From Nitrosarchaeum sp. (GTDB lineage Archaea; Thermoproteota; Nitrososphaeria; Nitrososphaerales; Nitrosopumilaceae), in NCBI GenBank assembly GCA_021414365.1, contig JAIOOR010000026.1, forward strand, positions 1 through 63,205: 63,205 nt of DNA, in the 5' to 3' direction. Shown here piece by piece: positions 27,234 to 47,782 of this stretch. Under the pieces are notes generated by a model. That model saw nothing but the letters and a program-made list of their open reading frames with translations, was not told where the DNA came from and did no database searches. A program made the position numbers and the translations under genes. The first letter of the stretch is position 1. Each line of letters starts with the position of its first letter.

Positions 27234-28271
27234 TTACATTTTTGGCTCAAGGCCCTTTGCCAATCTAAGTGCATCTACCAAACCATCTGCGTATCCTATG
27301 CTCAATATTGCAACTTCATCTTGACCATCCTCTAGAAATTTTTCTGCATCTTGAATATACAATTCAGCATTTTCAAGAATCACATTGAATTCTTTTTGAT
27401 CTTTGTAGTATGGTGTAATCTCTTCTAATGCCTCTCTTACCATTGGAACATATTTTTTCATCATTTGGACTGAAATCTTTTTTGTTTTTTCTGAATTGTC
27501 TTGCGGTTCATCTAAACACCTTCCAAGTATTTTTAGTGCATCTGATTCAGTAAAATGAAGTCTTCCTGTGATGATTATTGTGTGTGGCGGTTTACCAAAG
27601 TCAATTTTTTTTAGACTGGAAATTTTTCCTGATATGATTGATTGATCTTTGAATCCTACTCTTGATGCAACTATTGCATATGTTGACAAATCTATCACGT
27701 TTCTTTTTTGTCCTTTCTCAGTTTCTATTAATCCTGTCAAAGCATCTTTTGGATTCATGAAAAAATCCTTGTCTTGATTATACTCTAATAGTAATACTGT
27801 ATGGTTTCCTTCTATGACATTTTTGTAGATTACATAGTATGGAGTCGTTAGCGATTTCATTTCACTCATTATGGTTGCAATTCTTCCAATTTTGTAAAAG
27901 TGAAGACCGCATTCTCCTATCATTGAAGTTAAAGAGGATGACGCATGAATTGAATACGTCTTTATTTTTTCTTGAATTGCTCTAGTTCTTAATTCAATAT
28001 GGGTAGTTGCAATGTATGGATCTCCATAAGAGAGTAACACAACTTTTTTTGTTTTCGCATTTTTTAAGATCTCATTTCCATCTTCAACTAGCCATCTTTT
28101 ACCTTGCTTGAATTCGCCTTTGGTCATTTTTTTGATTTTTAGAATATCTGATTTTCCAATTGGACTGGTAAATTGTTCAAGATACACAATATCTGCTTTT
28201 GATAAAACTTGTACAGCTTCAACAGGTATTGAATTTGAACCTGAAATTCCTAAACCTACAAACCAAAGCAT
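27234..28271 (-). CDS. dphB: Diphthine synthase fused to a DUF357-like domain
   Basis: Residues 1-255 are a tetrapyrrole-methylase-fold diphthine synthase: MLWFVGLGISG at the start, LLSYGDPYIATTH (about 87-99) and IHASSSLTSMIGECGLH (split here by function, SAM site) are family motifs. The enzyme trimethylates the modified histidine of elongation factor 2 in diphthamide synthesis. Residues about 265-345 (KKYVPMVREALEEITPY to DALRLAKGLE) form a helical hairpin like the archaeal DUF357 domain, normally a separate protein, so the chain is about 80 residues longer than typical DphB. Its ATG overlaps the stop of lysK (TAATG), so it is read from the lysine operon. Confidence 0.88.
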   Translation of the reverse strand: MLWFVGLGISGSNSIPVEAVQVLSKADIVYLEQFTSPIGKSDILKIKKMTKGEFKQGKRWLVEDGNEILKNAKTKKVVLLSYGDPYIATTHIELRTRAIQEKIKTYSIHASSSLTSMIGECGLHFYKIGRIATIMSEMKSLTTPYYVIYKNVIEGNHTVLLLEYNQDKDFFMNPKDALTGLIETEKGQKRNVIDLSTYAIVASRVGFKDQSIISGKISSLKKIDFGKPPHTIIITGRLHFTESDALKILGRCLDEPQDNSEKTKKISVQMMKKYVPMVREALEEITPYYKDQKEFNVILENAELYIQDAEKFLEDGQDEVAILSIGYADGLVDALRLAKGLEPKM

Positions 28272-29398
28272 TACTGCAAATTTTTATCGTGAAGTCTTTT
28301 TAAATGATGTATCATTCGTTTTAAAATTTCAATTCCTCTTAGATATTCATCTATTGATACTTTTTCATCTATTGTGTGAGCTTGATGGGGATCACCTGGG
28401 CCGTATGTTACTACAGGAATCTTCCACTGATTTCCTATCACATTCATGTCTCCGGTTCCAGTTTTTCTAATCAATGTTGGTCTTGTGTGCTCTACATCCA
28501 TAACTCCTAAAGTAAATGCTCTGACTATGGCAGAATCATGTGGTGCTTCAAAAGGCTCTGTTTCATCTATGATTGAATAATATGCCTCCACTTTTCTTCT
28601 CTGGGCAATTTCATTTACTAGTACGGATATTTTCTGTTCAATTATTTTGCAATTCGTATCTACAGGAACTCTTATGTCAAAAGTGGAAACACATTCTTTT
28701 GGTGTAACGTTATGACTTGTTCCTCCTGTAATTTCAGTTAGTGTTGCAGTTAACAGCATTCCTTTACTTCTTTTATCTTGATCTGATTCTAAACCTTCTT
28801 TGAGTTCTTTTGCAAAGATCATTGTTTCTTCAATGGCATTTTTTGAAAGCCAAGGTGCACTTGCATGAGCGCTGTCATCTACACTTACTTTAAGATTGAT
28901 AGCTAATCTTCCTTTGTAAGCAATTGTCACTTGTTTTATTCCGCTTGGTTCCCCAAACACTGCATAATCTACATCGATGTGATTTTTGACTAAATTTTTT
29001 ACGCCAGTTGCATTTCCTTCTTCATCTACGGTACCAACAAAAATTACAGTGCCATTATTGTTTTGAACTGACGCTGCTGCAAATAACATTGCCATTAATG
29101 GTGCTTTTGCATCTGATGCACCTCTGCCATAAAGTGAATCTCCTTCTTTTCTAACTTTGACTTTTCCGGGAACTACATCCATGTGTCCACAAAGTAATAT
29201 TTTCGGTGAACCCGTTCCTTTTTTTGCAATGACGTTGCCTACTTCGTCTATGTGTATGTCTTCAAATCCCAAATCATCGCATTTATCTGCTAAAAATTCA
29301 GCCATTGATTTTTCATTTAGTGAAGGTGTGTACAATCTAAGTGCTTTTTCAAGCATCTTCACGGCAAATCTTGGTGTAACTGTAAATGTTGTTTCCAA
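28271..29398 (-). CDS. lysK: [LysW]-lysine/ornithine hydrolase
   Basis: This is an M20-family metallohydrolase of 375 residues. Metal-binding motifs are CGHMDVVPG (about 71-79), GRGASDAKAP, DEEGNATG and the C-terminal PGDPHQAHT. LysK releases lysine (and in the arginine branch ornithine) from the C-terminal residue of the carrier LysW, the final step of both branches. Here it is the only M20 enzyme in the cluster, so it presumably serves both. It overlaps dphB downstream by one base and follows lysX by 3 bp. Confidence 0.88.
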   Translation of the reverse strand: METTFTVTPRFAVKMLEKALRLYTPSLNEKSMAEFLADKCDDLGFEDIHIDEVGNVIAKKGTGSPKILLCGHMDVVPGKVKVRKEGDSLYGRGASDAKAPLMAMLFAAASVQNNNGTVIFVGTVDEEGNATGVKNLVKNHIDVDYAVFGEPSGIKQVTIAYKGRLAINLKVSVDDSAHASAPWLSKNAIEETMIFAKELKEGLESDQDKRSKGMLLTATLTEITGGTSHNVTPKECVSTFDIRVPVDTNCKIIEQKISVLVNEIAQRRKVEAYYSIIDETEPFEAPHDSAIVRAFTLGVMDVEHTRPTLIRKTGTGDMNVIGNQWKIPVVTYGPGDPHQAHTIDEKVSIDEYLRGIEILKRMIHHLKRLHDKNLQ

Positions 29399-29401
29399 TT
29401 C

Positions 29402-30250
29402 TCACTTTTTATTTTTCATTGCGTAATCAATCATTAATGAAGGTATGTCTACGCCACATACTCTTACTGTATTTTTATATTCAGTTGTATTGTTAACCTC
29501 GTGAACTACTAATCCACGTTCTTTACTTTCCATCAAATCTACTCCGACTATGTCTCCTTGAACAGCTTTTTTTGCTTTAATACACATTTCCTCCATTTCT
29601 GGTGTTACTTTGCATGGTTCTGCAGTTCCGCCTAGAGCCATGTTTGTTTTCCAATTTCCATTTCCTGAAGTTCTATAAATTGCTGCAACAATTTTATCTC
29701 CTACCATTATTGCTCTGATGTCTCTTGGTGGTCTGTTGACAAATTCTTCTAAATAATGAACTTGATAGATTGGATACATGCTTTCTCTACTTTCGATAAT
29801 TCCTTCTGCTGAATCTTTATCATTTAATTTTGAAATTAGTCTGCCCCAACTACCAACAGTTGGTTTGATCACTTTTGGATATCCACTAGTTTCAAGATGT
29901 TCAATTGCAGCTTCTTTTGAAAATGCAACGGTTGCATATGGTGTTGGAACTCCATATTTTTTTAATAGCATATGTGTGAATAATTTATTTCCTGCAAAAA
30001 TTCCAGTGTTTAAGCAATTAATTACATTAACACCCATTCCTTCAAGAGCTGCAGTAGAATGTAAATTTCTGTAATAGCTTACACATCTCTGAATAACTGG
30101 TCCATAATCTTCTGGTTTTTTTTCTAATTCTAAAGCTAAATTCTTACAATCAACCATTTGGATGTTGATGTTCTTTTTTTTGCCAGCTTCTAGCAGAGCT
30201 TTTTCTTCCCAACGAATTGTATCATAAAGAATTGTAACGTCTGTACTCAC
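29402..30250 (-). CDS. lysX: LysX, alpha-aminoadipate--LysW ligase
   Basis: This ATP-grasp ligase of the RimK family, about 282 residues, most likely starts at GTG 30250, which overlaps the lysW1 stop (GTGA); a TTG at 30259 is the longest start. The ATP site shows KPTVGSWGRL and the metal site EVNNTTEY. The C-terminal EYKNTVRVCGVDIP carries the Asn-Thr pair that, as I recall, marks LysX (2-aminoadipate-specific) as opposed to Gly-Phe in ArgX. The substrate carrier should be the adjacent LysW1, which is unusual in ending with Gln. Gene order lysS-lysW1-lysX-lysK supports a lysine-dedicated half operon. Confidence 0.85.
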   Translation of the reverse strand: MSTDVTILYDTIRWEEKALLEAGKKKNINIQMVDCKNLALELEKKPEDYGPVIQRCVSYYRNLHSTAALEGMGVNVINCLNTGIFAGNKLFTHMLLKKYGVPTPYATVAFSKEAAIEHLETSGYPKVIKPTVGSWGRLISKLNDKDSAEGIIESRESMYPIYQVHYLEEFVNRPPRDIRAIMVGDKIVAAIYRTSGNGNWKTNMALGGTAEPCKVTPEMEEMCIKAKKAVQGDIVGVDLMESKERGLVVHEVNNTTEYKNTVRVCGVDIPSLMIDYAMKNKK

Positions 30251-30414
30251 TGCCCCCAATCCTCGCCAACCGTTTGGGCAGGCTTTAATTGGAAACCGTT
30301 TGAGCCTTTTGTTAATTCAAAACTTGCGCCACATTCCGGACATGTTACAATTTCTCCTTCCATAGCATCTTTAGGAATGGAAATCTCTGCATCACATTCT
30401 TCACATTTTGACAT
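30247..30414 (-). CDS. lysW: LysW1, amino-group carrier protein with C-terminal EDWGQ
   Basis: This 55-residue acidic carrier has four zinc cysteines in two knuckles (CEEC at 4-7 and CPEC at 25-28) and the LysW tail TVGEDWGQ. The last codons read GAG GAT TGG GGG CAG TGA, so the final residue is Gln. In characterised LysW the terminal residue is Glu, whose gamma-carboxyl is ligated to aminoadipate or glutamate. The stop TGA overlaps the GTG start of lysX. Paired with the LysX-type ligase, it is either attached through another carboxylate, deamidated first, or a carrier whose chemistry differs. See the second carrier at 36036-36203. Confidence 0.9.
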   Translation of the reverse strand: MSKCEECDAEISIPKDAMEGEIVTCPECGASFELTKGSNGFQLKPAQTVGEDWGQ

Positions 30415-30436
30415 GTTTTTTCTTCACTTTCACTCT

Positions 30437-31603
30437 CTATTTATCGTTAATTATCTTTTTTTCAAGCCTGTCTGCTAGTGGAATCTCAATTAAATCTCCC
30501 ATTCTGAGCTCTTTGAGACCTAGGGCTACTGCTTTTGCGCCCTCATCGTCTTTTTGAAGACCTAAAATCGACATCAAATAAGCAGCACCAGTTTTTCCTG
30601 CCAATTCTCCAAAGACAATCCTTCTTGTATTTCCAACGGCTCTTGGTGGAATTGGTTCATAGGCTGCAGGATTTCGCAGAATTGCAGCAAGATGTGTTCC
30701 AGCCTTGTGTTTGTATGCAGAAGAACCAACTAGTGGTTTTGAATCATATGGTTTAATTGAAGTATAGTTTTCAATCAATCTAGACAAGTCTAACAACATA
30801 TCTAATCTGAAATCATTTGGCGACTTGTACAGATATGTCAATGCTACGGCAACCTCTGCAAGAGGAGGAATTCCTGTTCGTTCGCCTATGCCGTCGATTG
30901 TTGTATGTATTTGATCCACTCCTGCATCACATGCAGCAAATGCGTTAGCTACTGCAAAACCAATGTCATTGTGAACATGTGCATCAAGTGGAACATCGAT
31001 TACATTTCTTACAGTTTTAACAAAATTATACATGCCGATTGGTCTCATGATTCCTACTGTGTCTGGCAAACTTATCCTATCTACACCTGCTTCTTCAATT
31101 GCCTTGCACACTTTTAACAAAAATTCTGGCTCTGCCCTACTTCCATCTTCTACGGTAAATCTAATTTTAAGTCCATGTGATTTTGCATATTCTACTGTCT
31201 CAACTGCTCGGTTCAATGCTTCTTCTCTTGAAATTCTTAACTTGTCTTTAAGATGAATATCTGAAATTCCAAGATATGCTGCACACCATTTTGCATCAAC
31301 GCTCAATGAAATGTCAATGTCTTCTTTGAGAGCTCTTCCGTGAGATACAATGTCTGCTTTTAGTCCTTGTTTGATAATTGTTTTAGTTGCTTCTTTGTGA
31401 TCACTGGAAACAACTGGTGAAATTTCTATTTGATCTACTCCAAAATAATCTAACATCCATGCAATTTGGATTCGTTGTTTATTTGTAAATGAAACTCCTG
31501 GATGTTGTTCACCTTCTCTTAAAGTGCTGTCTAACACTTTGATCTTCTTTGGATTTTTATCATATGCATTGTATATGTCTGCATAGTAATTCGGATCTTT
31601 CAT
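30437..31603 (-). CDS. lysS: Homocitrate synthase
   Basis: This is a 388-residue member of the DRE-TIM metallolyase family. The N-terminal motif VLDSTLREGEQHPGV contains the catalytic Arg-Glu, the metal HxH is in DAHVHNDIG, and GIGERTGIPPL with the C-terminal GSSAYKHKAGTH follow the homocitrate synthase pattern. It condenses 2-oxoglutarate with acetyl-CoA, the first step of the aminoadipate route. Isopropylmalate or citramalate synthase is less likely because the C-terminal LeuA regulatory domain is absent and lysW/lysX follow 22 bp downstream. Confidence 0.88.
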   Translation of the reverse strand: MKDPNYYADIYNAYDKNPKKIKVLDSTLREGEQHPGVSFTNKQRIQIAWMLDYFGVDQIEISPVVSSDHKEATKTIIKQGLKADIVSHGRALKEDIDISLSVDAKWCAAYLGISDIHLKDKLRISREEALNRAVETVEYAKSHGLKIRFTVEDGSRAEPEFLLKVCKAIEEAGVDRISLPDTVGIMRPIGMYNFVKTVRNVIDVPLDAHVHNDIGFAVANAFAACDAGVDQIHTTIDGIGERTGIPPLAEVAVALTYLYKSPNDFRLDMLLDLSRLIENYTSIKPYDSKPLVGSSAYKHKAGTHLAAILRNPAAYEPIPPRAVGNTRRIVFGELAGKTGAAYLMSILGLQKDDEGAKAVALGLKELRMGDLIEIPLADRLEKKIINDK

Positions 31604-31630
31604 TACAGAAAACGTTCACATAAATTGAGA

Positions 31631-31637
31631 ATATAAA
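31631..31637 (-). promoter_or_regulatory. TATA box before homocitrate synthase
   Basis: TTTATAT on the minus strand is centred about 31 nt upstream of the lysS ATG (31603). It shows that lysS-lysW1-lysX-lysK-dphB is a second transcription unit, separate from argG-to-lysM, with lysM's 3' end just upstream. Confidence 0.5.
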
Positions 31638-31718
31638 TATATTCGTACTAGTTTCGCTGAAAACTACTTGTATTGATCCTAATTTAGGCAACTATAGAAA
31701 TTATGCACCGAAAGTCGT

Positions 31719-32138
31719 TTATGCTACTTTTCTTAAAATAATTACTGTATTGGTGTCTATGACGCCTGGAATTTTTCTTAATGCATCAATGCTGTTGTTT
31801 ATTTCAGATATGTTTGAGGCACTAATTATTGTAGTAATATCATACTGACCGGTAATCTCGTAGACTGTTTTGACTCCTTCTAATTTTACTAGTTTTTCTG
31901 AAACTTTTGCAGTGTCTGTTGCAGAATCTACAGATATCAAAACAATGGCACTTGTTGCGTTCTCCTCTCCTATCTCAACTGTGAATCTTTTGATAGTTCC
32001 ACTGTCTACAAGGTTTTTCACTCTTCTTCTGACAGCTGATTCTGATAATTTTAGTTTCTTTCCAATATCTACAAAAGACTCTCTAGAATCTTCTTTGAGA
32101 AAATTTATTATTTTTTCATCGATTTTATCTTTATACAT
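31719..32138 (-). CDS. lysM: Lrp/AsnC-family regulator (LysM-like)
   Basis: This 139-residue protein has an N-terminal HTH (FVDIGKKLKLSESAVRRRV) and a C-terminal RAM ligand domain (VYEITGQYDITTII). Archaeal LysM responds to lysine and binds the lys-cluster promoter. Its position at the end of the arg/lys operon and directly upstream of the lysS promoter agrees with that role. The start overlaps the end of lysJ by 8 nt, indicating coupled translation. A binding site cannot be proven, but the 115-bp gap to lysS is the obvious candidate. Confidence 0.87.
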   Translation of the reverse strand: MYKDKIDEKIINFLKEDSRESFVDIGKKLKLSESAVRRRVKNLVDSGTIKRFTVEIGEENATSAIVLISVDSATDTAKVSEKLVKLEGVKTVYEITGQYDITTIISASNISEINNSIDALRKIPGVIDTNTVIILRKVA

Positions 32139-33306
32139 TGATTTTTTGCTCCTCTATAGTTAGTACCTTATCTAGGGTTTCTAAAACTTTTGTTATGTCT
32201 TCTTTAGATATTACCAACGGTGGTAAAATTCTTAGGATGTTTCTTCCTGAATATAGCATTAGGACTCCTTCTTTCATGAGATTCATTAGAATATCTTTTA
32301 CCTCAAATTTCAATTCCACGCCTATCATCAACCCTTTTCCTCTGATCTCTCTAATTATGGGGTGCTTTTCTTTTAATTTCTCCAACCCTTCTCTGAAAAA
32401 CTCTCCCATCTTTTCAGAATTTTCAATCAAACCATCTTGAGTGAGTGCTTGCAGTGTTGCTATTCCTGCAGCACATGAAAGTGGGTTTCCCCCAAAGGTT
32501 GATGAGTGTTCTCCTTTGCTCATTGAAGCAAGAATGTCTGGTCTTACCAAAGTTGCACCCATTGGAACTCCTCCGGCAATTCCTTTTGCAAGACATAAAA
32601 TGTCTGGTGCAGTATTCCAATGCTCACATGCCCATAATCGTCCTGTCCTGCCAAGTCCTGCTTGTATTTCGTCAAAAATTAGCAGAATCCCTTTTTCATT
32701 GCAAACCTTTCTTACTTCTTGTAAAAATCCGTCTGGTGCAACATTGATTCCACTCTCACCTTGAATTGGTTCTAAAATAACAAATGCTGTGTCCTCATCA
32801 ATAGTGGAACGAAGTGATTCAATATCTCCAAATGTCGCAAAAGAAACTTTTTCAACTAATGGCTCAAACGCTTTTTTGTATTTTGGATTAAATGTTAATG
32901 ATAATGCACCTAGAGATTTTCCGTGATATGATCCTTTCATTGCCACCATTCCTTTTTTGCCTGTAAACTTTCTTGCAAATTTTATTGCAGCTTCTATTGC
33001 TTCTGCACCGCTATTGTTCAGATGAACTTGAGTTAGTCCCTTTGGTGCAAGTCCGATAAGTGTTTTGAGAAACTCTTCTCTAGTTTTATTGTATAGAGAA
33101 CTGTGAACTGTAATTATTTTATCAACTTGATCTTTGATTGCTTTTACTACTCTTTTATTTTGATGTCCAACAATTGCTACACCATATCCTCCCATACAGT
33201 CAATGTACTCTTTTCCATTGATATCCCAAACATGAGCTCCGATTCCTTTTTCAATTGTAACAGGGAATCTCTGATACAAACCTCCCATAAAGTCGTCTTC
33301 AGTCAT
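32131..33306 (-). CDS. lysJ: [LysW]-semialdehyde aminotransferase
   Basis: This is a 391-residue class III PLP aminotransferase. The PLP lysine lies in CLAKGIAGGVPMG (about 237-249), the phosphate/ring contacts in GSYHGKSLGAL and the aspartate in FDEIQAGLGRTG. LysJ (also acting as ArgD) transfers an amino group to LysW-bound aminoadipate or glutamate semialdehyde. It overlaps lysZ (upstream) and lysM (downstream) by 8 nt each, so the three are tightly coupled. Confidence 0.9.
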   Translation of the reverse strand: MTEDDFMGGLYQRFPVTIEKGIGAHVWDINGKEYIDCMGGYGVAIVGHQNKRVVKAIKDQVDKIITVHSSLYNKTREEFLKTLIGLAPKGLTQVHLNNSGAEAIEAAIKFARKFTGKKGMVAMKGSYHGKSLGALSLTFNPKYKKAFEPLVEKVSFATFGDIESLRSTIDEDTAFVILEPIQGESGINVAPDGFLQEVRKVCNEKGILLIFDEIQAGLGRTGRLWACEHWNTAPDILCLAKGIAGGVPMGATLVRPDILASMSKGEHSSTFGGNPLSCAAGIATLQALTQDGLIENSEKMGEFFREGLEKLKEKHPIIREIRGKGLMIGVELKFEVKDILMNLMKEGVLMLYSGRNILRILPPLVISKEDITKVLETLDKVLTIEEQKINV

Positions 33307-34102
33307 TTCTAATCACCGTACAGTTATCGTGTGCTATTGCCGATGATATAGGATTTTCTCTTTGGCCATTTGCAATGAGTGCTTCTTTTACTCCCATATC
33401 TAGTGCTTCAGTGGATGCAAGAATCTTCTTTTCCATACCTGGACCTATCTTTGGTCTGATCTCCTTTGCTTCTGCTAGGGTTAATTTAGTTACGAGTTTG
33501 TCATCCATTAGTAATCCATCCACATTTGTTATGAATAACACTTTATCGCAACCAACACTTCCTGCTACATATGCTGCGGCTCTGTCTCCATCTACATTTA
33601 GAAATTCTGATTCTTCACTTATTGCGATTGGTGAAATTACAGGCGTCAAACCCTGCTCTAATAGCAATTTAATTAAATTTGAATTGACTTTGGTGATTTT
33701 ACCTGTATACCCACCATCAATTGCTTGCTTTCGACCTTTTTCATTAATTATTAGCAGTGTCTTTTTTCTTTCCGCTTGAATTATTCTTGCATCAACACCT
33801 GAAAGTCCAATTGCATTGATTCCATTTTTTTGAAGCATTTGAACAATTGTTTTGTTTATACGTCCGGATATTACCATTGTAAAAATTTCTGCAGTTTCTT
33901 TGTCTGTGTATCTGCTCTTTATTCCGCTAGGTGATGTTACAAATCTGGGTTCTTTTCCAAGTTGCTCGCAAACTTTTGTGACTTCTTTTCCTCCACCATG
34001 AACGATGATTAATCCTTCTGTCTCTGCAACTTTTTTCATATCTGAAATAGTCGATGGATGTAAATTATCTACTACACTCCCGCCGATTTTGATTGTGATC
34101 AT
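33299..34102 (-). CDS. lysZ: [LysW]-aminoadipate/glutamate kinase
   Basis: This 267-residue amino-acid kinase shows KIGGSVVD at the N-terminus, VHGGGKEV (about 35-42), the nucleotide-contact region LNVDGDRAAAYVA and the C-terminal GPGMEKKI. It phosphorylates the side chain of the LysW-linked substrate, as NAGK does for acetylglutamate. It is the only kinase of this type in the cluster, supporting bifunctional use in lysine and arginine synthesis. The coding region begins 2 bp after lysY. Confidence 0.9.
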   Translation of the reverse strand: MITIKIGGSVVDNLHPSTISDMKKVAETEGLIIVHGGGKEVTKVCEQLGKEPRFVTSPSGIKSRYTDKETAEIFTMVISGRINKTIVQMLQKNGINAIGLSGVDARIIQAERKKTLLIINEKGRKQAIDGGYTGKITKVNSNLIKLLLEQGLTPVISPIAISEESEFLNVDGDRAAAYVAGSVGCDKVLFITNVDGLLMDDKLVTKLTLAEAKEIRPKIGPGMEKKILASTEALDMGVKEALIANGQRENPISSAIAHDNCTVIRND

Positions 34103-34104
34103 TT

Positions 34105-35151
34105 CTATACTGGAGTAAGTGGAGTGTATCTCAAACCATCCATTTCATCAAAGCCACACATAACATTCATGTTTTGTATTGCAGAACCTGCTGCGCCTTT
34201 CATTAGGTTATCTGATGCTGACATTACAATCAATCTGTGATTTTCTTCATCTATGTCAAAACCTATATCACAAAAGTTTGAACCAACCACAAATTTTGGA
34301 TCTGGGAATTTATACAATCCTTTTTTATCTCGAATTAATCGAATAAATCTCTCTTCACCATAAGCTTCACGAAATATTTTCCATAATTCTTTTTCATCCA
34401 TATCTTTTTTCATAAATGTGTGATTTGTACATAAGATTCCTCTAACTACATCTACTGCATGTGGACTCATTGAAACATGAATTTTCTTTCCTGCAATTTC
34501 GCTTAGCTCTTGTTCTATTTCTCCAGTGTGTCTGTGTTTTGCTGGCTTGTATGGTCTGATGACTCCTGCTCTCATTGCATGTGCAGTTCCTGAACCAGAG
34601 CCTGCACCTGATGAACCAATCTTTGAATCTACAATGATGTGGTCAATATCAATTAAATCATGTCTGATTAATGGCGCAAGTGCTAAAGTGGAAGTTACCG
34701 CCATGCATCCAGGACAAGAAACTAGCTGTGCTTTTTTGATTGCCTCTCTGTGAAATTCTGGAACTCCAAATACTGATTTTGACAAATAATCCGGATGTGG
34801 GTGTTCCCATCCATACCATTTACCATAATCTGCAGGATTGTGTAATCTATAATCTGCACTCAAATCAATAACTTTCAAACCTCTGTCATACAATGCTTTT
34901 ACAATTTCAGTTGCTGTTCCATGTGGAACTGCAGTAAATACAATGTCACATTTATCCGTCATTTTATCATAATCTAATTCCGAAAAAGTCAGATCGGTAA
35001 ATCCTTTCAAACTTGGTTGAATTCTATGAAGATATTCTCCAACATGTTGTCTTGATGTAACCATTGCGATCTCTACATCTGGGTGATTTACTAAAAGACG
35101 AAGTGTTTCTCCTCCGACATAACCTGATGCTCCAACAACGCCAACTTTCAT
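34105..35151 (-). CDS. lysY: [LysW]-aminoadipyl/glutamyl phosphate reductase
   Basis: This 348-residue semialdehyde dehydrogenase of the ArgC family has an NADP-binding start VGVVGASGYVGGETLRLL (residues 2-19) and the catalytic Cys in LVSCPGCMAV (about 143-152), with a His in SPHAVDVVRG further on. It reduces the acyl-phosphate on the carrier to the semialdehyde. It starts 27 bp after the end of argX; CTCC-rich bases (AGGAG on the minus strand) just before its ATG may be a ribosome-binding site. Confidence 0.9.
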   Translation of the reverse strand: MKVGVVGASGYVGGETLRLLVNHPDVEIAMVTSRQHVGEYLHRIQPSLKGFTDLTFSELDYDKMTDKCDIVFTAVPHGTATEIVKALYDRGLKVIDLSADYRLHNPADYGKWYGWEHPHPDYLSKSVFGVPEFHREAIKKAQLVSCPGCMAVTSTLALAPLIRHDLIDIDHIIVDSKIGSSGAGSGSGTAHAMRAGVIRPYKPAKHRHTGEIEQELSEIAGKKIHVSMSPHAVDVVRGILCTNHTFMKKDMDEKELWKIFREAYGEERFIRLIRDKKGLYKFPDPKFVVGSNFCDIGFDIDEENHRLIVMSASDNLMKGAAGSAIQNMNVMCGFDEMDGLRYTPLTPV

Positions 35152-35178
35152 GATACTCCTCCCGCAAGGAACTATAAT

Positions 35179-36036
35179 TTATTTCCTAACATATCTTAAG
35201 GCATATTCTACCATTTCTTTGGGAATATTTCGGCGTGAAACTTTTGAAAGTCCCTTAAACTCGACAGTATTGTTAACCTCATGTACTACCAATCCTCTCT
35301 TCTGATCTTCCATAATGTCAATCCCTAAAATTCCTCCTCCCATAGCTTTTGATGCTTTTGTAGATATCTCTTCGATCTCTTTTGTGATCTCACATAATTC
35401 AGGATCTGCTCCAAGTGCTATGTTTGTCTTAAAACCTCCTGACGATTTTCTATACATGGCAGCTATTGGTTCATCACCAATAGTAATAACTCGAATATCT
35501 CTTGGTGGTCTATTGATTACTTCTTGAAGGTAAAAGATTCTGTCATGTGGGCTATCTGTAATGTCTCTTATCTCAAATAATGCATCAGCTGTATCTTTGT
35601 CTTTTAGTTGCATCACGCCTCTTCCCCAGCTTCCAATGACTGGCTTTATCACTAGAGGATACCCAACTTTTTCTATATTTTCTGAGGCACTCTCACTTGA
35701 GAATGAAAAGTACGTTTTTGGTGTAGGTACATTATATTTTTTTAAAATTAAAGTCATGAACATTTTATTTCCGCACAGATTTGCAACTTGAAATTTGTTG
35801 AGTACTGGCACATCCATAAATTCAAGACAAGAAGTAAAATGGAGACCTCTAAAATAACTTACACATCTCTCTAAAACTACGTCTCCAAAATCAAAATCAT
35901 CTTTTTTGCTGTCTGTATTGATCTGTGTAATCTTGGCATCTTGCATCACTGCCTGGTGCCCTAGATTCAATGCCTCTTTTTCAAGCATCTTCTCTTCCGT
36001 CCTTAGACGGTCAAATACAATACAGATCTTTGACAT
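35179..36036 (-). CDS. argX: ArgX, glutamate--LysW ligase
   Basis: This 285-residue ATP-grasp enzyme is paralogous to the LysX at 29402-30250. The ATP and metal motifs KPVIGSWGRG and EVNNTVEF are conserved. Where LysX has FKN[TS], this protein has EFKGLSKV; Gly-Leu is close to the Gly-Phe signature I recall for ArgX, so glutamate is the likely substrate and the product enters ornithine/arginine synthesis. Location between argG-lysW2 and lysY supports this. Its ATG overlaps the lysW2 stop (TAATG). Confidence 0.82.
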   Translation of the reverse strand: MSKICIVFDRLRTEEKMLEKEALNLGHQAVMQDAKITQINTDSKKDDFDFGDVVLERCVSYFRGLHFTSCLEFMDVPVLNKFQVANLCGNKMFMTLILKKYNVPTPKTYFSFSSESASENIEKVGYPLVIKPVIGSWGRGVMQLKDKDTADALFEIRDITDSPHDRIFYLQEVINRPPRDIRVITIGDEPIAAMYRKSSGGFKTNIALGADPELCEITKEIEEISTKASKAMGGGILGIDIMEDQKRGLVVHEVNNTVEFKGLSKVSRRNIPKEMVEYALRYVRK

Positions 36037-36203
36037 TACTCTCCCCAGTCTTCGCCTACAGTTTCTGCTTGTTTTAGCTCAACTACAGATCCATTTTTTT
36101 TTGCGATCTCAAAGTCGGCACCACAATCAGAACAAGAGATTATCTCTCCAACAGAGGCATCGTCTGGGATGTTAAGAGTTGCATCACATTCTTGACATTT
36201 CAT
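36036..36203 (-). CDS. lysW: LysW2, amino-group carrier protein with C-terminal EDWGE
   Basis: This is a 55-residue carrier with cysteine knuckles CQEC (3-6) and CSDC (25-28) and the canonical tail TVGEDWGE, the terminal Glu being the attachment residue. It shares length and architecture with LysW1 but differs in many surface positions. It overlaps argG by 4 nt upstream and argX by 1 nt downstream, so this copy is physically tied to the arginine half of the cluster. Confidence 0.92.
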   Translation of the reverse strand: MKCQECDATLNIPDDASVGEIISCSDCGADFEIAKKNGSVVELKQAETVGEDWGE

Positions 36204-37399
36204 ATTTTTGTTGACCTTTTCTTTTGTAATTTATTAGCTTCTGTTGACTGAATTCCCCACAATTCTACAAATCCTTTTGCCATTTTTTGATCAAAAGTTG
36301 ATTCTGAACCATATGTGGCGATCTTGTGACTATATAGTGAATACTCTGACTTTCTTCCAACCACTCTCATGCTTCCTTTGAATAGTTTTAGTTTTACCGT
36401 TCCTGATACTGGTTTTTGTGATGTTTCAATAAATGCATCTAGATCTTGTTTTAGAGGATCTTGCCATAATCCTGAATATGCAAGATATGCCCATTCATCA
36501 TCAATAATTGATTTGAATTTATTTTCATGTTTTGTGTGAACCATTTTTTCTAAATCTGAATGAGCTTCAATTAGGCATAATGCACCTGGAGTCTCATAAA
36601 CCTCGCGCGATTTTATCCCAACCACTCTGTCTTCAATATGATCAATAATTCCAACTCCTGCATCACCTGCTTTTTTGTTTACATACTCGATTAATTTTAT
36701 TGGTTCAAGACTTTTTCCATCTACTGCAACAGGAATCCCTTTTTCAAATTTAATTTCAATGTATGTTGGTTTGTCTGGTAAGTTTTTTGTTTTTACCCAA
36801 ATGAATGCATCATCAGGAGGTTCACTGTAAGGGTCTTCTAAAACTCCGCCTTCAATTGCACGGCCCCACAAGTTTTGATCAATACTGAATCTTTTTGCTA
36901 CTGAATCAATTTCAATTCCATGTTTTTTTGCAAATGCTAATTCTGTTACTCTGTCTAAATTCTTGTCTCTAATTGGTGCAATGATTGGTAAATCAGAACC
37001 TGAACGCAATGTGATGTCAAATCTAACTTGATCATTTCCTTTACCTGAACATCCATGAGCTAGTGATGTCACTTTTTCTTTTTTTGCAATTTCTAAAACT
37101 TTTTCTGCAATTAGTGGTCTGGCCAATGCTGTTGCCAAACAATATTTCTTTTGATAAAGTGCATTTGCTTTAATTGATGGGAAAATAAATTTTTCAACAA
37201 ACTCTTTTCTTGCATCAATGTTGTAGTGCTTTATCACTCCAAGCTTTTTTGCTTTGGCCTCAATTTTTTTCTGATCATCACCTTGACCTACATCTACAGT
37301 TACTGTTATGACATCCATGTTGTATTCTTCTTGAAGATATTTTACCACAACTGATGTATCTAGTCCACCAGAAAATGCAAGAATTCCTTTTTCAGCCAT
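36200..37399 (-). CDS. argG: Argininosuccinate synthase
   Basis: From ATG 37399 this is 399 residues, the usual ArgG length (an upstream ATG at 37408 adds three residues). The PP-loop ATP motif LAFSGGLDTSV is at the start, and GCSGKGNDQVRF and the EGGVLEDPYSEPP substrate region follow. It joins citrulline and aspartate in arginine synthesis. It heads the operon, so arginine and lysine genes are co-transcribed. No argH is visible in the window. Confidence 0.95.
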   Translation of the reverse strand: MAEKGILAFSGGLDTSVVVKYLQEEYNMDVITVTVDVGQGDDQKKIEAKAKKLGVIKHYNIDARKEFVEKFIFPSIKANALYQKKYCLATALARPLIAEKVLEIAKKEKVTSLAHGCSGKGNDQVRFDITLRSGSDLPIIAPIRDKNLDRVTELAFAKKHGIEIDSVAKRFSIDQNLWGRAIEGGVLEDPYSEPPDDAFIWVKTKNLPDKPTYIEIKFEKGIPVAVDGKSLEPIKLIEYVNKKAGDAGVGIIDHIEDRVVGIKSREVYETPGALCLIEAHSDLEKMVHTKHENKFKSIIDDEWAYLAYSGLWQDPLKQDLDAFIETSQKPVSGTVKLKLFKGSMRVVGRKSEYSLYSHKIATYGSESTFDQKMAKGFVELWGIQSTEANKLQKKRSTKI

Positions 37400-37502
37400 A
37401 AAACACATTTTCCCGTTGTATTTTGGAATTTATCTTTTGTGATGCACTGAAAATTAAAAATCTCTTTCAACTCTTTCTAACTAGCTTGAGCTAAAATTCG
37501 AT

Positions 37503-41295: not shown

Positions 41296-42258
41296 TTGGT
41301 ACAAAAAGAACCATTCCTTACTGCACTACAAAATAGAATCTTGCTTTTTGATGGTGCAATGGGAACTGAAATTCAAAAATATGATCCAAAGCCTGAAGAT
41401 TTTCCAAATAATCAAGATGGTTTTAACGACGGTTTGGTAATAACTCATCCAGAATGGATAAAACAAATTCATAGGAATTATTTAGATGCAGGTGCTGATT
41501 GTATTGAAACTAATTCTTTTGGTTCAAACAAAATAAAATTAGATGAATACGGCTTTGGTGATCAAACAGTAGAGTTTAACAAAAAAATAGCACAACTTGC
41601 AGTAGATGTCTGTTCAGAATATTCTGATAGGCCTAGATATGTAATTGGTTCAATGGGACCGTCAGGTTATCTTCCAAGTTCAAATGATCCTGATTTGGGA
41701 CAAAAACCTCTTAATGAAATTAAAGATGCTTTTGAATTACAATCTGAAGGTCTAATTCTTGGTGGCGTTGATGCTTTACTAATTGAGACGAGTCAGGATA
41801 TTTTGGAAGTAAAACTTGTCATTGAAGCATGTCATGATGCCATGAAAAAGACTGGGAAAAAAATTCCAATCATTGCAAATACAACTTTGGATCAGTATGG
41901 AAAAATGCTACTTGGGACAAACATTCAAGCTGCATACACCACAGTATCTGATATGGGAATTGACGTTTTTGGTCTTAACTGCTCCACTGGTCCGTCTGAA
42001 ATGATTCCAAGTGTTAGATGGCTTGATGAGCAAAATGAACATAACATATTGGTAGTTCCAAACGCAGGTATGCCTGAAAATCAGGGTGGACATGCAATAT
42101 ACAAAATGACTCCTGAAAAAATGGGTGAAGTGCTAGGTGATTTTCTTAAACAGTACAAAAAAGTTCGAATAATTGGTGGTTGTTGTGGGACAAATCCTCA
42201 ACATATTGCTGCATTAAGAAAAGTAATTGACGAAAAAGACTATTCTATCAAGGGTTAG
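41296..42258 (+). CDS. metH: Homocysteine-binding subunit of methionine synthase
   Basis: This 320-residue protein (TTG start) is the homocysteine S-methyltransferase domain. LLFDGAMGTEIQ starts the barrel, TNSFGSNKIKLDEY is the substrate region, and the zinc ligands are Cys in FGLNCSTGP and the paired Cys in GGCCGTNPQHI. It corresponds to the first module of bacterial MetH. The other modules are encoded by the next gene 31 bp downstream, so the enzyme is split in two polypeptides. A stand-alone S-methylmethionine-dependent enzyme is the alternative, but the neighbour argues against it. Confidence 0.88.
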   Translation: MVQKEPFLTALQNRILLFDGAMGTEIQKYDPKPEDFPNNQDGFNDGLVITHPEWIKQIHRNYLDAGADCIETNSFGSNKIKLDEYGFGDQTVEFNKKIAQLAVDVCSEYSDRPRYVIGSMGPSGYLPSSNDPDLGQKPLNEIKDAFELQSEGLILGGVDALLIETSQDILEVKLVIEACHDAMKKTGKKIPIIANTTLDQYGKMLLGTNIQAAYTTVSDMGIDVFGLNCSTGPSEMIPSVRWLDEQNEHNILVVPNAGMPENQGGHAIYKMTPEKMGEVLGDFLKQYKKVRIIGGCCGTNPQHIAALRKVIDEKDYSIKG

Positions 42259-42289
42259 GTTTTTAGAAAAATGAGGAGAATGTAACATA

Positions 42290-44785
42290 TTGATTCCTAG
42301 AGTTAGTTCAGCACTAAAAGCAGTTGATTTGAAACAATTACCTCCTCCTCTGATAATTGGGGAGAGAATAAACACACAGGGTTCAAAAAAAGCAAAGCAG
42401 CTAGTACTCAATGATGATTATGATGGGTTAGTTGATTTAGCAAGAGTCCAGGTAGAAGATGGGGCACATTGCCTTGATGTCTGTGTTGCAACCACTGAAC
42501 GATCCGATGAACACAAGTTTATGGTAAACCTTGTAAAAAAATTAAGTTTAGAAATTGATGCTCCATTAGTAATTGATTCTACAGATCCAGATGTGATAAA
42601 ATCAGCTGTCGAACAAATTCCTGGTAGACCAATAATTAACTCAATTAATTTGGAAGGAGATGGAAGTAGATTTGAAAAACTTGCCCCAATAATGGCAAAA
42701 TATGGTTTACCTGCAATTGCATTGTGTATTGGACCAAAAGGCATGGCAAAGACTCCTCAAGAGAAAGTTGAAACCGCGGAACTACTTTATGAGACAGGAA
42801 AAAAATATGGATTACAAATTGAGCAATTTATTTTTGATGTCTTAACTTTTACACTTGCTACTGGAGAAGACGAGTTCTTAGATGCAGGAAAAAATACTTT
42901 GGAAGGCATACGACTGGTAAAAGAAAAATTTCCAAAATCCTTTACCACTTTGGGATTGAGCAACATCAGTTTTGGATTGGTTCCATATGCAAGAAAAGTT
43001 CTTAATTCTGTATTTTTGTATCACGCAGTAAAATCTGGATTGGATACTGCAATTGTTAATGCAAAAGAAATAATTCCATATGGGGAAATTGATGAAAAAG
43101 AAAAAAAATTAGCCGAAGATTTAATCTACAACACTCATCCAAACGCGTTATCTGAATTAATTATTTATTTTGAAAAGGCAGGTTCCCAAGATGACAATAC
43201 TTCAAAAAAAATGGATGTGGATCCTACATGGTCTCCTGGGAAACGTGCATACTTTAGAATTTTAAATAGATTAAAAGATGGAATTCAAAACGATGTTGTT
43301 TCTGCTATTGCTGAAAAAGTAGGTAAAGATGACATCATTGAAGATCATGATGGTATCCTTTCTCTAAATGCTCCGCAAACAATTACACATGATGGAGCAA
43401 TTAGGACACTCAATGAAGACTTACTTCCTGCAATGAAGGAGGTAGGTGACAAATTTGGTTCTGGTGAATTAATTCTACCATTTGTTCTAAAGTCTGCTGA
43501 GTGCATGAAGGCAGCAGTTGGGGAATTAGAAAAATATCTAGTTAAAGAAGAAGGCACATCTAAAGGAAAACTCGTACTTGGAACTGTCTATGGCGATGTA
43601 CATGATATTGGAAAGAATTTGGTAAAAACAATTTTTCAAAATAATGGTTACACAGTTTATGACCTTGGAAAGCAAGTACCCTTGCAAAAATTCTTGGAAA
43701 AAATAGATGAAGTAAAACCTGATGCACTTGGGCTATCTGCACTCTTGGTATCTACATCAAAGCAGATGCAATATTTTGTTGAACATGCAAGAAAAAACAA
43801 CATGAATATTCCAATTTTATGCGGTGGTGCTGCAATCAACAGCAATTACATCAACAGAATTGCAAAAGAAGGAAGTATCTACGAATCTGGAGTGTTTTAC
43901 TGCAATACCATGTTTGAGGGTTTGAAAACAATGGACACATTGGTATCAGATGAAAAACCAAAATTTTTGGCGCAGTGGAGGGAGAAACTAGAGAATTGGA
44001 AAGAAAAATCTACTGCAGTAGTTGACACTGCAAATCTTCCAAAAAGTAACATCAAACCTGTAACTCCTCCGACTCCTCAAATAATTGGAGAGCCAATCAG
44101 ATTGAAATCTGATCAAATTAAGATGAATGAGGTTTGGGAATTAATTGATAAAAAATCTCTCTTCAAGTTATCTTGGGGTCTGCGTGGAAAATCGGGCTCA
44201 GAACAAGAGGCGGATCATGAAATATTGCTAAATCAATGGAAGATTCGAATAATTAGAGAAAAATTATTTGAACCTGAAATTGTATATGGTTTTTTTAAAT
44301 GCCACAACAAAGACGGAAAGCTAATAGTCGATAATCCAAGTGGTAAAAGTGAAGAATTTGACTTTCCACGTTCCTCAAAAGCCAGTCATCTTTGCCTTAC
44401 TGATTATTTTGGAGATGATGATATTGTTGCATTTCAGGCAGTCACAGTTGGAAACAGAGTTTCAGATGTTATAGAAAAATGGAATAAAGAAGACAAGTAC
44501 ACTGATGCTTACTATTTGCATGGTTTGGCAGTTGAAGTAGCTGAGGCATTAGCAGAATGGATTAACAGGAAAATAAAATCTGAACTAAAACTTGAGACAG
44601 GAGGACTGCGGTATAGTTGGGGATTTCCAAGCTGCCCTGATGTTTCACAACATAATTTAGTTTGGAATTTACTGCATCCAGAAAAATCTGGCATGACGTT
44701 GACTGAATCTGGGCAAATCATTCCAGAGCAATCTACTGCGGCAATTGTAGTACATCATCCTGAATCGCAGTACTTTGTTCTTTAG
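42290..44785 (+). CDS. metH: B12-dependent methionine synthase, folate/B12/activation modules
   Basis: This 831-residue protein (TTG start) holds the remaining MetH modules in order: pterin-binding barrel (GERINTQGSKKAKQL, about 24-38, to about 280), a helical cap, the cobalamin domain with DVHDIGKNLV (about 438-447; His is the lower cobalt ligand) and GLSALLVSTSKQM, and a C-terminal SAM-dependent reactivation domain with GGLRYSWGFPSCPD (about 767-780). Presence of the reactivation domain means a full cobalamin-dependent enzyme. AOA make cobalamin and are thought to supply it to other plankton; this gene shows an internal use. The final 4 bases overlap the convergent metF-like gene. Confidence 0.92.
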   Translation: MIPRVSSALKAVDLKQLPPPLIIGERINTQGSKKAKQLVLNDDYDGLVDLARVQVEDGAHCLDVCVATTERSDEHKFMVNLVKKLSLEIDAPLVIDSTDPDVIKSAVEQIPGRPIINSINLEGDGSRFEKLAPIMAKYGLPAIALCIGPKGMAKTPQEKVETAELLYETGKKYGLQIEQFIFDVLTFTLATGEDEFLDAGKNTLEGIRLVKEKFPKSFTTLGLSNISFGLVPYARKVLNSVFLYHAVKSGLDTAIVNAKEIIPYGEIDEKEKKLAEDLIYNTHPNALSELIIYFEKAGSQDDNTSKKMDVDPTWSPGKRAYFRILNRLKDGIQNDVVSAIAEKVGKDDIIEDHDGILSLNAPQTITHDGAIRTLNEDLLPAMKEVGDKFGSGELILPFVLKSAECMKAAVGELEKYLVKEEGTSKGKLVLGTVYGDVHDIGKNLVKTIFQNNGYTVYDLGKQVPLQKFLEKIDEVKPDALGLSALLVSTSKQMQYFVEHARKNNMNIPILCGGAAINSNYINRIAKEGSIYESGVFYCNTMFEGLKTMDTLVSDEKPKFLAQWREKLENWKEKSTAVVDTANLPKSNIKPVTPPTPQIIGEPIRLKSDQIKMNEVWELIDKKSLFKLSWGLRGKSGSEQEADHEILLNQWKIRIIREKLFEPEIVYGFFKCHNKDGKLIVDNPSGKSEEFDFPRSSKASHLCLTDYFGDDDIVAFQAVTVGNRVSDVIEKWNKEDKYTDAYYLHGLAVEVAEALAEWINRKIKSELKLETGGLRYSWGFPSCPDVSQHNLVWNLLHPEKSGMTLTESGQIIPEQSTAAIVVHHPESQYFVL

Positions 44786-46834: not shown

Positions 46835-47782
46835 TTATTCTAATTGGTATAAATCCAGTTTATAGTCGATGCTACAATCTGGTTGTGCCCAATCTAATGT
46901 GTTTTCTTGTGGAATGACTCCAAGTGGATCATATTTTTCGAATTTTGTCATTCCTTGAATTGAAGATAGCATTACTATTTTAGATTCGTTTGAAGATACC
47001 ATGTCTACTTGTGAACTGCTTTCACCGAGTATTCCGTTGGTTAGATTTGTAATTGAATTAATGACTCCAACTGGAATATTGTTTCCACCAACAACGTATA
47101 GCATTGAGCGCTTTACCGCATTTGGTGTTGTATTATCATATAGCATTTTGAGTGAGTCTCTTAGTGATTCTTCCATGTTTTGTCCGTTTTTACTTGTAGT
47201 TAGGATGTTTGTTTGATTTGGTATTTCAGAAGAATGCAAGGAACTAACTACGTGCATAATGGCATTATTTGCAATACTATAACATGTATTTGGGCTCAAA
47301 TCTGGATTGCTTTCTAAAAGTGAATCATTATCCAAAACAATAGTGCACTCTGAATTTGCTCTCACTCTTTTTAGTGAAATACCTGAATTGAAAATTCTGT
47401 CTTTTTCATATTTGAATGGCATTATGGCAAATGAGATTAGCCCCTTGTCTGATTCTTTACAAATTTCTGAAACTACTGGAGATATTGCAGAGCCTGTCTT
47501 TCCTGCCAAATTTGTCATAAGAATAATTGTAGAATATTTTGAAATTTTTGACCTTATTTGATCTGCTTCTTTGTATGCAGCGCCTCTGATTAATTGAACT
47601 GATGGATTTATGACTGAATCTGTTGATACTTTGATTGAATCATTGCCTGATTGAATATCTTTTTGATCATTGCTAATAATTAGACAGTCTGAATTCAAAA
47701 CGTCTTTAGCCTGTATTGCTAATTTTGAGCCTGCACCGCCTAAGCCAATAACTAAGATCGGTTCTTTTACTTGAAAACTCAT
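46835..47782 (-). CDS. ftsZ: Divergent FtsZ/tubulin-like GTPase
   Basis: This 315-residue protein starts with the FtsZ-type nucleotide loop IGLGGAGSKLAIQA (13-26), followed by an NDQKDI equivalent of the T2 region and a sheet-helix alternation like FtsZ. The tubulin signature GGGTGTG is replaced by NLAGKTGSA (91-99), and no NxDxxD catalytic loop is recognisable in the T7 region. GTP hydrolysis on polymerisation is therefore doubtful. Thaumarchaea divide with Cdv proteins and their FtsZ homologue is reported not to localise as a division ring. The gene is about 60 residues shorter than bacterial FtsZ. Confidence 0.75.
   Translation of the reverse strand: MSFQVKEPILVIGLGGAGSKLAIQAKDVLNSDCLIISNDQKDIQSGNDSIKVSTDSVINPSVQLIRGAAYKEADQIRSKISKYSTIILMTNLAGKTGSAISPVVSEICKESDKGLISFAIMPFKYEKDRIFNSGISLKRVRANSECTIVLDNDSLLESNPDLSPNTCYSIANNAIMHVVSSLHSSEIPNQTNILTTSKNGQNMEESLRDSLKMLYDNTTPNAVKRSMLYVVGGNNIPVGVINSITNLTNGILGESSSQVDMVSSNESKIVMLSSIQGMTKFEKYDPLGVIPQENTLDWAQPDCSIDYKLDLYQLE

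Follow-up and report, generated by a model that had tools for sequence, protein, structure and literature searches.

The DNA analyzed here (the window) comprises 63,205 nucleotides, positions 1 to 63,205 of contig JAIOOR010000026.1 in assembly GCA_021414365.1, from a Nitrosarchaeum sp. of the family Nitrosopumilaceae. It contains a lysine and arginine biosynthesis cluster with two LysW amino-group carrier proteins, LysW1 and LysW2, which adjoin the ATP-grasp ligases LysX and ArgX, respectively. LysW1 is encoded with a C-terminal glutamine. We put the chances slightly above even that LysW1 is a working carrier made as a glutamine-ended precursor and deamidated to glutamate, with LysK, the hydrolase that releases lysine or ornithine from the carrier, as the most likely deamidase.

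Two carriers and their ligases

The features that bear directly on this proposal are as follows.

30247-30414, minus strand: LysW1, LysX-side amino-group carrier ending EDWGQ (translation; NCBIfam NF041070, 89 bits, cut-off 75; Pfam PF21344 above cut-off)
30250-30252, minus strand: terminal glutamine codon CAG of LysW1 (sequence; conserved in relatives)
29402-30250, minus strand: LysX, the lysine-branch ATP-grasp ligase (NCBIfam TIGR02144, 328 bits, cut-off 276; EYKNT [Asn-Thr] signature)
29468-29482, minus strand: EYKNT substrate-signature residues of LysX (sequence)
36036-36203, minus strand: LysW2, ArgX-side carrier ending EDWGE (translation; NCBIfam NF041070, 91 bits, cut-off 75)
35179-36036, minus strand: ArgX, the arginine-branch ATP-grasp ligase (RimK/LysX family; EFKGL [Gly-type] signature; adjoins argG; related to 3vpb/3vpc)
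28271-29398, minus strand: LysK, M20 hydrolase releasing lysine or ornithine from LysW, candidate LysW-Gln deamidase

Both carriers have the four-cysteine zinc-ribbon body of the LysW/ArgW family, score above its cut-off, and are linked to a LysX or ArgX ligase and to LysZ, LysY, LysJ, and LysK. A terminal glutamate is also expected of such carriers, and LysW2 has it, its C terminus (VGEDWGE) being encoded with GAG followed by a TAA stop. In contrast, LysW1 ends VGEDWGQ, the last codon being CAG (30252-30250) before a TGA stop, and would gain the expected glutamate after deamidation. Translation confirmed the first-pass annotation of this DNA, in which LysW1 ending EDWGQ overlaps lysX and LysW2 ending EDWGE overlaps argX. 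LysX probably starts at the GTG at 30250, giving a GTGA start/stop overlap with lysW1, and ArgX starts at the ATG at 36036 and carries EFKGL at 35248-35262. LysX is assigned by its Asn-Thr signature and TIGR02144 score, and ArgX, a predicted glutamate ligase, by its Gly-type signature and the adjacent arginine gene argG; the two signatures agree with the Asn-Thr (LysX) versus Gly-Phe (ArgX) specificity swap described for Sulfolobus (PMC10433800).

The best NCBIfam match of LysK is NF003367, the [LysW]-lysine hydrolase, under its cut-off, while TIGR01902 is above cut-off; its solved relative is 5xoy (E value, 2e-50). The genome that contains the window (26 contigs, 99.9% complete) has two LysW copies, both in the cluster, and one copy each of LysK and LysZ, in searches that covered these three families.

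The linker ahead of the tail is mostly A-Q-x-V-GEDWG on the LysX side in ammonia oxidizers and A-E-x-V/I-GEDWG on the ArgX side. This linker glutamine or glutamate largely tracks the branch, whereas the terminal one does not.

The terminal residue across the class

Among 400 genomes of the class, 263 have the EDWGQ-stop pattern, and none matches a reversed control pattern; in a phylum sample the pattern is present in 87 of 398 genomes, and the reversed control gave 3 matches. EDWGQ was present at 29 of the 30 best LysX-side loci among the 400 genomes of the class. Named records with the pattern include Nitrosopumilus, Nitrosarchaeum, Nitrosotenuis, Nitrosotalea, Nitrosopelagicus, Cenarchaeum, and Nitrososphaera. 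Both CAG and CAA encode the terminal glutamine, and all three stops follow it. Chance and a sequencing error at 30250-30252, the latter allowed for in the first-pass annotation, are thus ruled out, given that the glutamine is conserved between species and written with both codons. A constraint imposed at the DNA level by the GTGA overlap is rejected because the glutamine also precedes TAA and TAG stops. Neither the second pattern match in genome G070 nor a match in G427 is a carrier, and no carrier was found at the bacterial matches L190, L207, L222, L240, and L241, among the matches listed for the genome-wide scan. No mention of EDWGQ was found in a search of open-access papers. The paper on the metabolic model of Nitrosopumilus maritimus names one LysW gene (PMC6038301).

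Across 372 carrier open reading frames, obtained by a profile search of all the loci read, 243 ended EDWGQ and 129 ended EDWGE, and there was no other ending; these are counts rather than frequencies, as the loci partly overlap, loci seeded by the pattern inflate glutamine, and exceptions were sampled on purpose. The E, D, W, and G ahead of the terminal residue were invariant in all carriers. From a GAG codon, glutamine accounts for about one in seven of the amino-acid-changing single-base steps. Parsimony on a LysX tree of 87 rows requires the terminal state to change 10 times, with 5 changes forced by well-supported branches, and an ArgX tree of 67 rows requires 5 changes, 4 of them forced; both trees were built quickly and include some long branches. 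The changes were always between glutamine and glutamate. On a tree of the LysW sequences of the class, which is weak (50 columns, with two very long rows that were probably badly extracted), the ligase side changes 2 times and the tail 11 times. The pairing of carrier and ligase is therefore old and appears older than the glutamine tail. LysW1 and LysW2 are paralogues of ancient origin, one dedicated to LysX and the other to ArgX, and the distinction between them does not lie in the tail. The first-pass annotation had tied each carrier to its own ligase, and that part of it is borne out.

A reading of the carriers in about 60 genomes belonging to the class gave all four combinations of endings. 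Glutamine on the LysX side with glutamate on the ArgX side characterizes most of family f1 along with f2 g23 and f3 g26; glutamine is on both sides in f3 g28, g25, g46, and g48; the reverse arrangement, with glutamate beside LysX and glutamine beside ArgX, occurs in f3 g30 and g36; and glutamate is on both sides in f5, f2 g31, and one f1 g6 clade. In the deeper families that were sampled (f4, f6 to f18, and f20 to f22), the ending is glutamate throughout. Glutamine beside LysX is conserved in the Nitrosopumilaceae, and several lineages have LysX-linked orthologues that end in glutamate, a finding that the first-pass annotation had itself named as telling against its interpretation. Outside the ammonia oxidizers, glutamine-ended carriers were found next to LysX-type ligases in f32 and f37 and next to Gly-type ligases in f58 and f55. 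The f32 carriers (L310 to L317) combine the glutamine tail with a second zinc motif whose form is degenerate, reading HEECGA or HDECGA instead of CxxCGA; the Sulfolobus carrier, with EHECGA, is similar in this motif.

In f3 g24 (L172 to L177), the ArgX-side lysW has been lost and argX directly follows argG. Three single-contig genomes of this group, G070, G093, and G100, have both ligases and only one carrier genome-wide, as established by an alignment search for the first two and a protein search for the third. That lone carrier is glutamine-ended and stands beside LysX, and glutamine-ended carriers must therefore work.

The ligases were compared across the two kinds of carrier. In one minimal pair, the carriers at L025 (glutamate) and L012 (glutamine) are identical over 50 aligned residues except for the last, and their LysX proteins are 95.3% identical. 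Only LysX residues 2, 3, and 279 are peculiar to the glutamate clade, and none of them lies in a conserved active-site column. The GSWGR motif, reported to recognize the EDWGE tail (PMC10433800), was invariant in 184 of 184 LysX sequences, and the motif and some 40 further columns show little or no variation on either the glutamine or the glutamate side. Judged from these alignments, the ligases are not re-tooled between glutamine- and glutamate-ended carriers.

Proposed loading of a glutamine-ended carrier

The reported attachment site in Thermus, Sulfolobus, and Thermococcus is the γ-carboxyl of the terminal glutamate (summarized in PMC10433800), and the side chain of the terminal residue matters in Natrinema, since an argW(E54A) mutant is an arginine auxotroph (PMC10433800). 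A glutamine amide cannot be loaded via a γ-carboxyl, so the conflict with known chemistry that had been raised for LysW1 is upheld. The repeated swaps suggest that the glutamine form must first become the glutamate form, as with the Pup tag of actinobacteria. Ammonia oxidizers are generally autotrophs. Genomes with a single, glutamine-ended carrier presumably make both amino acids, and glutamine is swapped only with glutamate; the simplest account of both is a posttranslational conversion of glutamine to glutamate.

In the proposed sequence of events, LysW1 would be made as a glutamine-ended pro-carrier, its terminal glutamine would be hydrolyzed to glutamate, and LysX would then load α-aminoadipate on the γ-carboxyl in the usual way. 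As the deamidase, LysK would cleave the same bond in hydrolyzing the γ-amide, with ammonia leaving instead of lysine or ornithine. LysK is the prime candidate because its normal reaction is on the same residue, it was present in all of the genomes tested (20 of 20), the M20 catalytic residues (H72, D74, D96, E126/E127, E150, and H341) are intact in its aligned members, and it is the sole copy in the window's genome. Known glutamine deamidase families were rejected as an explanation: Dop/PafA (PF03136) was absent from all 10 genomes searched, with a positive Corynebacterium control, and CheD was found in 2 of 10 genomes, the window's genome not being one of the two. If the proposal is correct, LysK plays a double role, activating the new carrier and unloading the used one.

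Several points weigh against this proposal. We infer the deamidation itself from indirect evidence, and the role of LysK in it less certainly still. LysK is also part of the pathway in lineages with glutamate-ended carriers, and it cannot alone explain why glutamine is confined to certain lineages; either its tolerance must differ between lineages or something else is involved. Glutamine has been kept almost throughout the Nitrosopumilaceae and so is not simply neutral, and its benefit is unexplained; one speculative reason for keeping it would be that the precursor stays inert until LysK is present. The occurrence of LysK where glutamine does not occur also favors a different deamidase, an unrecognized amidohydrolase that lineages with glutamine-ended carriers might have in common as an extra enzyme. 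However, no extra gene adjoins the glutamine carrier in the window's cluster, and the maturation is not explained by the CheD or Dop/PafA families; we consider such an enzyme unlikely.

The evolutionary pattern would also fit a group common to glutamate and glutamine, namely, the backbone α-carboxyl, if the shape of the side chain is needed. The ligases would then join the amino acid to the α-carboxyl of the terminal residue, the two residues would be equivalent, and the side chain would serve only as a fitting piece. RimK is thought to act on the α-carboxyl of ribosomal protein S6, and LysX is in the RimK α-L-glutamate ligase family. The absence of re-tooling speaks for this reading, as does the two-state site, which would follow from glutamine and glutamate being isosteric. 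However, it runs counter to the γ-carboxyl attachment reported in three genera (PMC10433800), it would require LysZ, LysY, LysJ, and LysK to accept a new geometry at every switch, and the deeper families sampled keep a terminal glutamate. We rate it an outside chance, on a par with a deamidase other than LysK; deamidation, which the first-pass annotation had offered beside it as a way out, fits the evolutionary pattern better, and both fall short of proof. Deamidation as a separate step would be unnecessary if the ligase used ATP to activate the amide oxygen of the glutamine, letting the amino acid that arrives displace ammonia. We know of no ATP-grasp precedent for such an activation, which counts against it, and no ligase active-site residue tracks the glutamine. 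Attack on ATP by a side-chain amide oxygen has been proposed for PupQ in Dop (PMC8599861), but we regard its counterpart in LysX as improbable. Least probable of all is the idea, raised in the first-pass annotation, that glutamine marks a lysine-only carrier and so insulates lysine from arginine synthesis. It matches the window and most Nitrosopumilaceae, with glutamine on the LysX side and glutamate on the ArgX side, but it founders on the genomes with the reverse arrangement, with glutamine on both sides, with glutamate on both sides, or with a single glutamine-ended carrier, and on the LysW tree, where tail changes outnumber side changes 11 to 2.

Cluster context and known carrier systems

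In order of transcription on the minus strand, the cluster reads argG, lysW2, argX, lysY, lysZ, lysJ, an AsnC-type regulator, a homocitrate-synthase-like gene, lysW1, lysX, and lysK. Its remaining members are the following.

30437-31603, minus strand: gene of the homocitrate/isopropylmalate synthase family, located upstream of lysW1, homocitrate synthase by context
31719-32138, minus strand: Lrp/AsnC-type regulator inside the cluster (Pfam PF13404 and PF01037)
32131-33306, minus strand: LysJ aminotransferase (TIGR00707, 443 bits, cut-off 410)
33299-34102, minus strand: LysZ, [LysW]-aminoadipate/[LysW]-glutamate kinase (NF010662, 298 bits, cut-off 194)
34105-35151, minus strand: LysY/ArgC reductase (TIGR01850, 416 bits, cut-off 234)
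36200-37408, minus strand: argG, argininosuccinate synthase, upstream of lysW2 (NF001770, 527 bits)

The substrate of the presumed homocitrate synthase is assigned by context only, because its scores against its best NCBIfam relatives fall short of their curated cut-offs. The Lrp/AsnC regulator gene overlaps lysJ by a few bases, and its product may be a sensor of lysine or arginine. Elsewhere in the window, methionine synthase is split over two neighboring plus-strand genes (41296-44785), a homocysteine methyltransferase at 41296-42258 and the pterin/B12/activation part at 42290-44785, and a divergent tubulin/FtsZ-family protein of 315 amino acids is encoded on the minus strand at 46835-47782.

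The LysW systems of Sulfolobus, Thermus, and Thermococcus (3vpb, 3wwl, and 5k2m) share with the present one the zinc-ribbon body, the EDWG tail, an ATP-grasp partner with GSWGR, and a common set of LysZ, LysY, LysJ, and LysK. In those systems the carrier is encoded with the glutamate that is the reported attachment residue, whereas LysW1 encodes glutamine, and Sulfolobus has one common carrier where the window has two. ArgW of Natrinema gari likewise has the EDWG tail, and its terminal residue is essential, as the E54A auxotroph indicates; unlike LysW1, it is glutamate-ended and serves arginine only (PMC10433800).

A precedent for the proposed conversion lies outside these pathways. In some actinobacteria the gene for Pup specifies the PupQ form, which is deamidated by Dop, the enzyme that also cleaves the Pup isopeptide bond (PMC8599861). 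Like LysW, Pup, with its enzymes Dop and PafA, is a small carrier that ends in glutamine or glutamate depending on the species. It is a protein unrelated to LysW, and it is a proteasome tag rather than a carrier for biosynthesis. The LysW carriers share the interchange of terminal glutamine and glutamate among relatives and, with no PF03136 protein in the 10 genomes searched, lack a dedicated deamidase of the Dop/PafA family, which makes them an analogue of the PupQ system and not a member of it. It is possible, though we advance it only tentatively, that glutamine pro-carriers evolved here for a second time, independently of Pup, and that lysine, and in some clades arginine, is made on carriers that must be deamidated by their own releasing enzyme, LysK. 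Ammonia-oxidizing archaea are a large and abundant group. That such a group encodes glutamine at this position and has repeatedly swapped it with glutamate implies either an unrecognized maturation step or that the reported attachment site is not universal. For annotation, EDWGE is an unsafe requirement for a working carrier.

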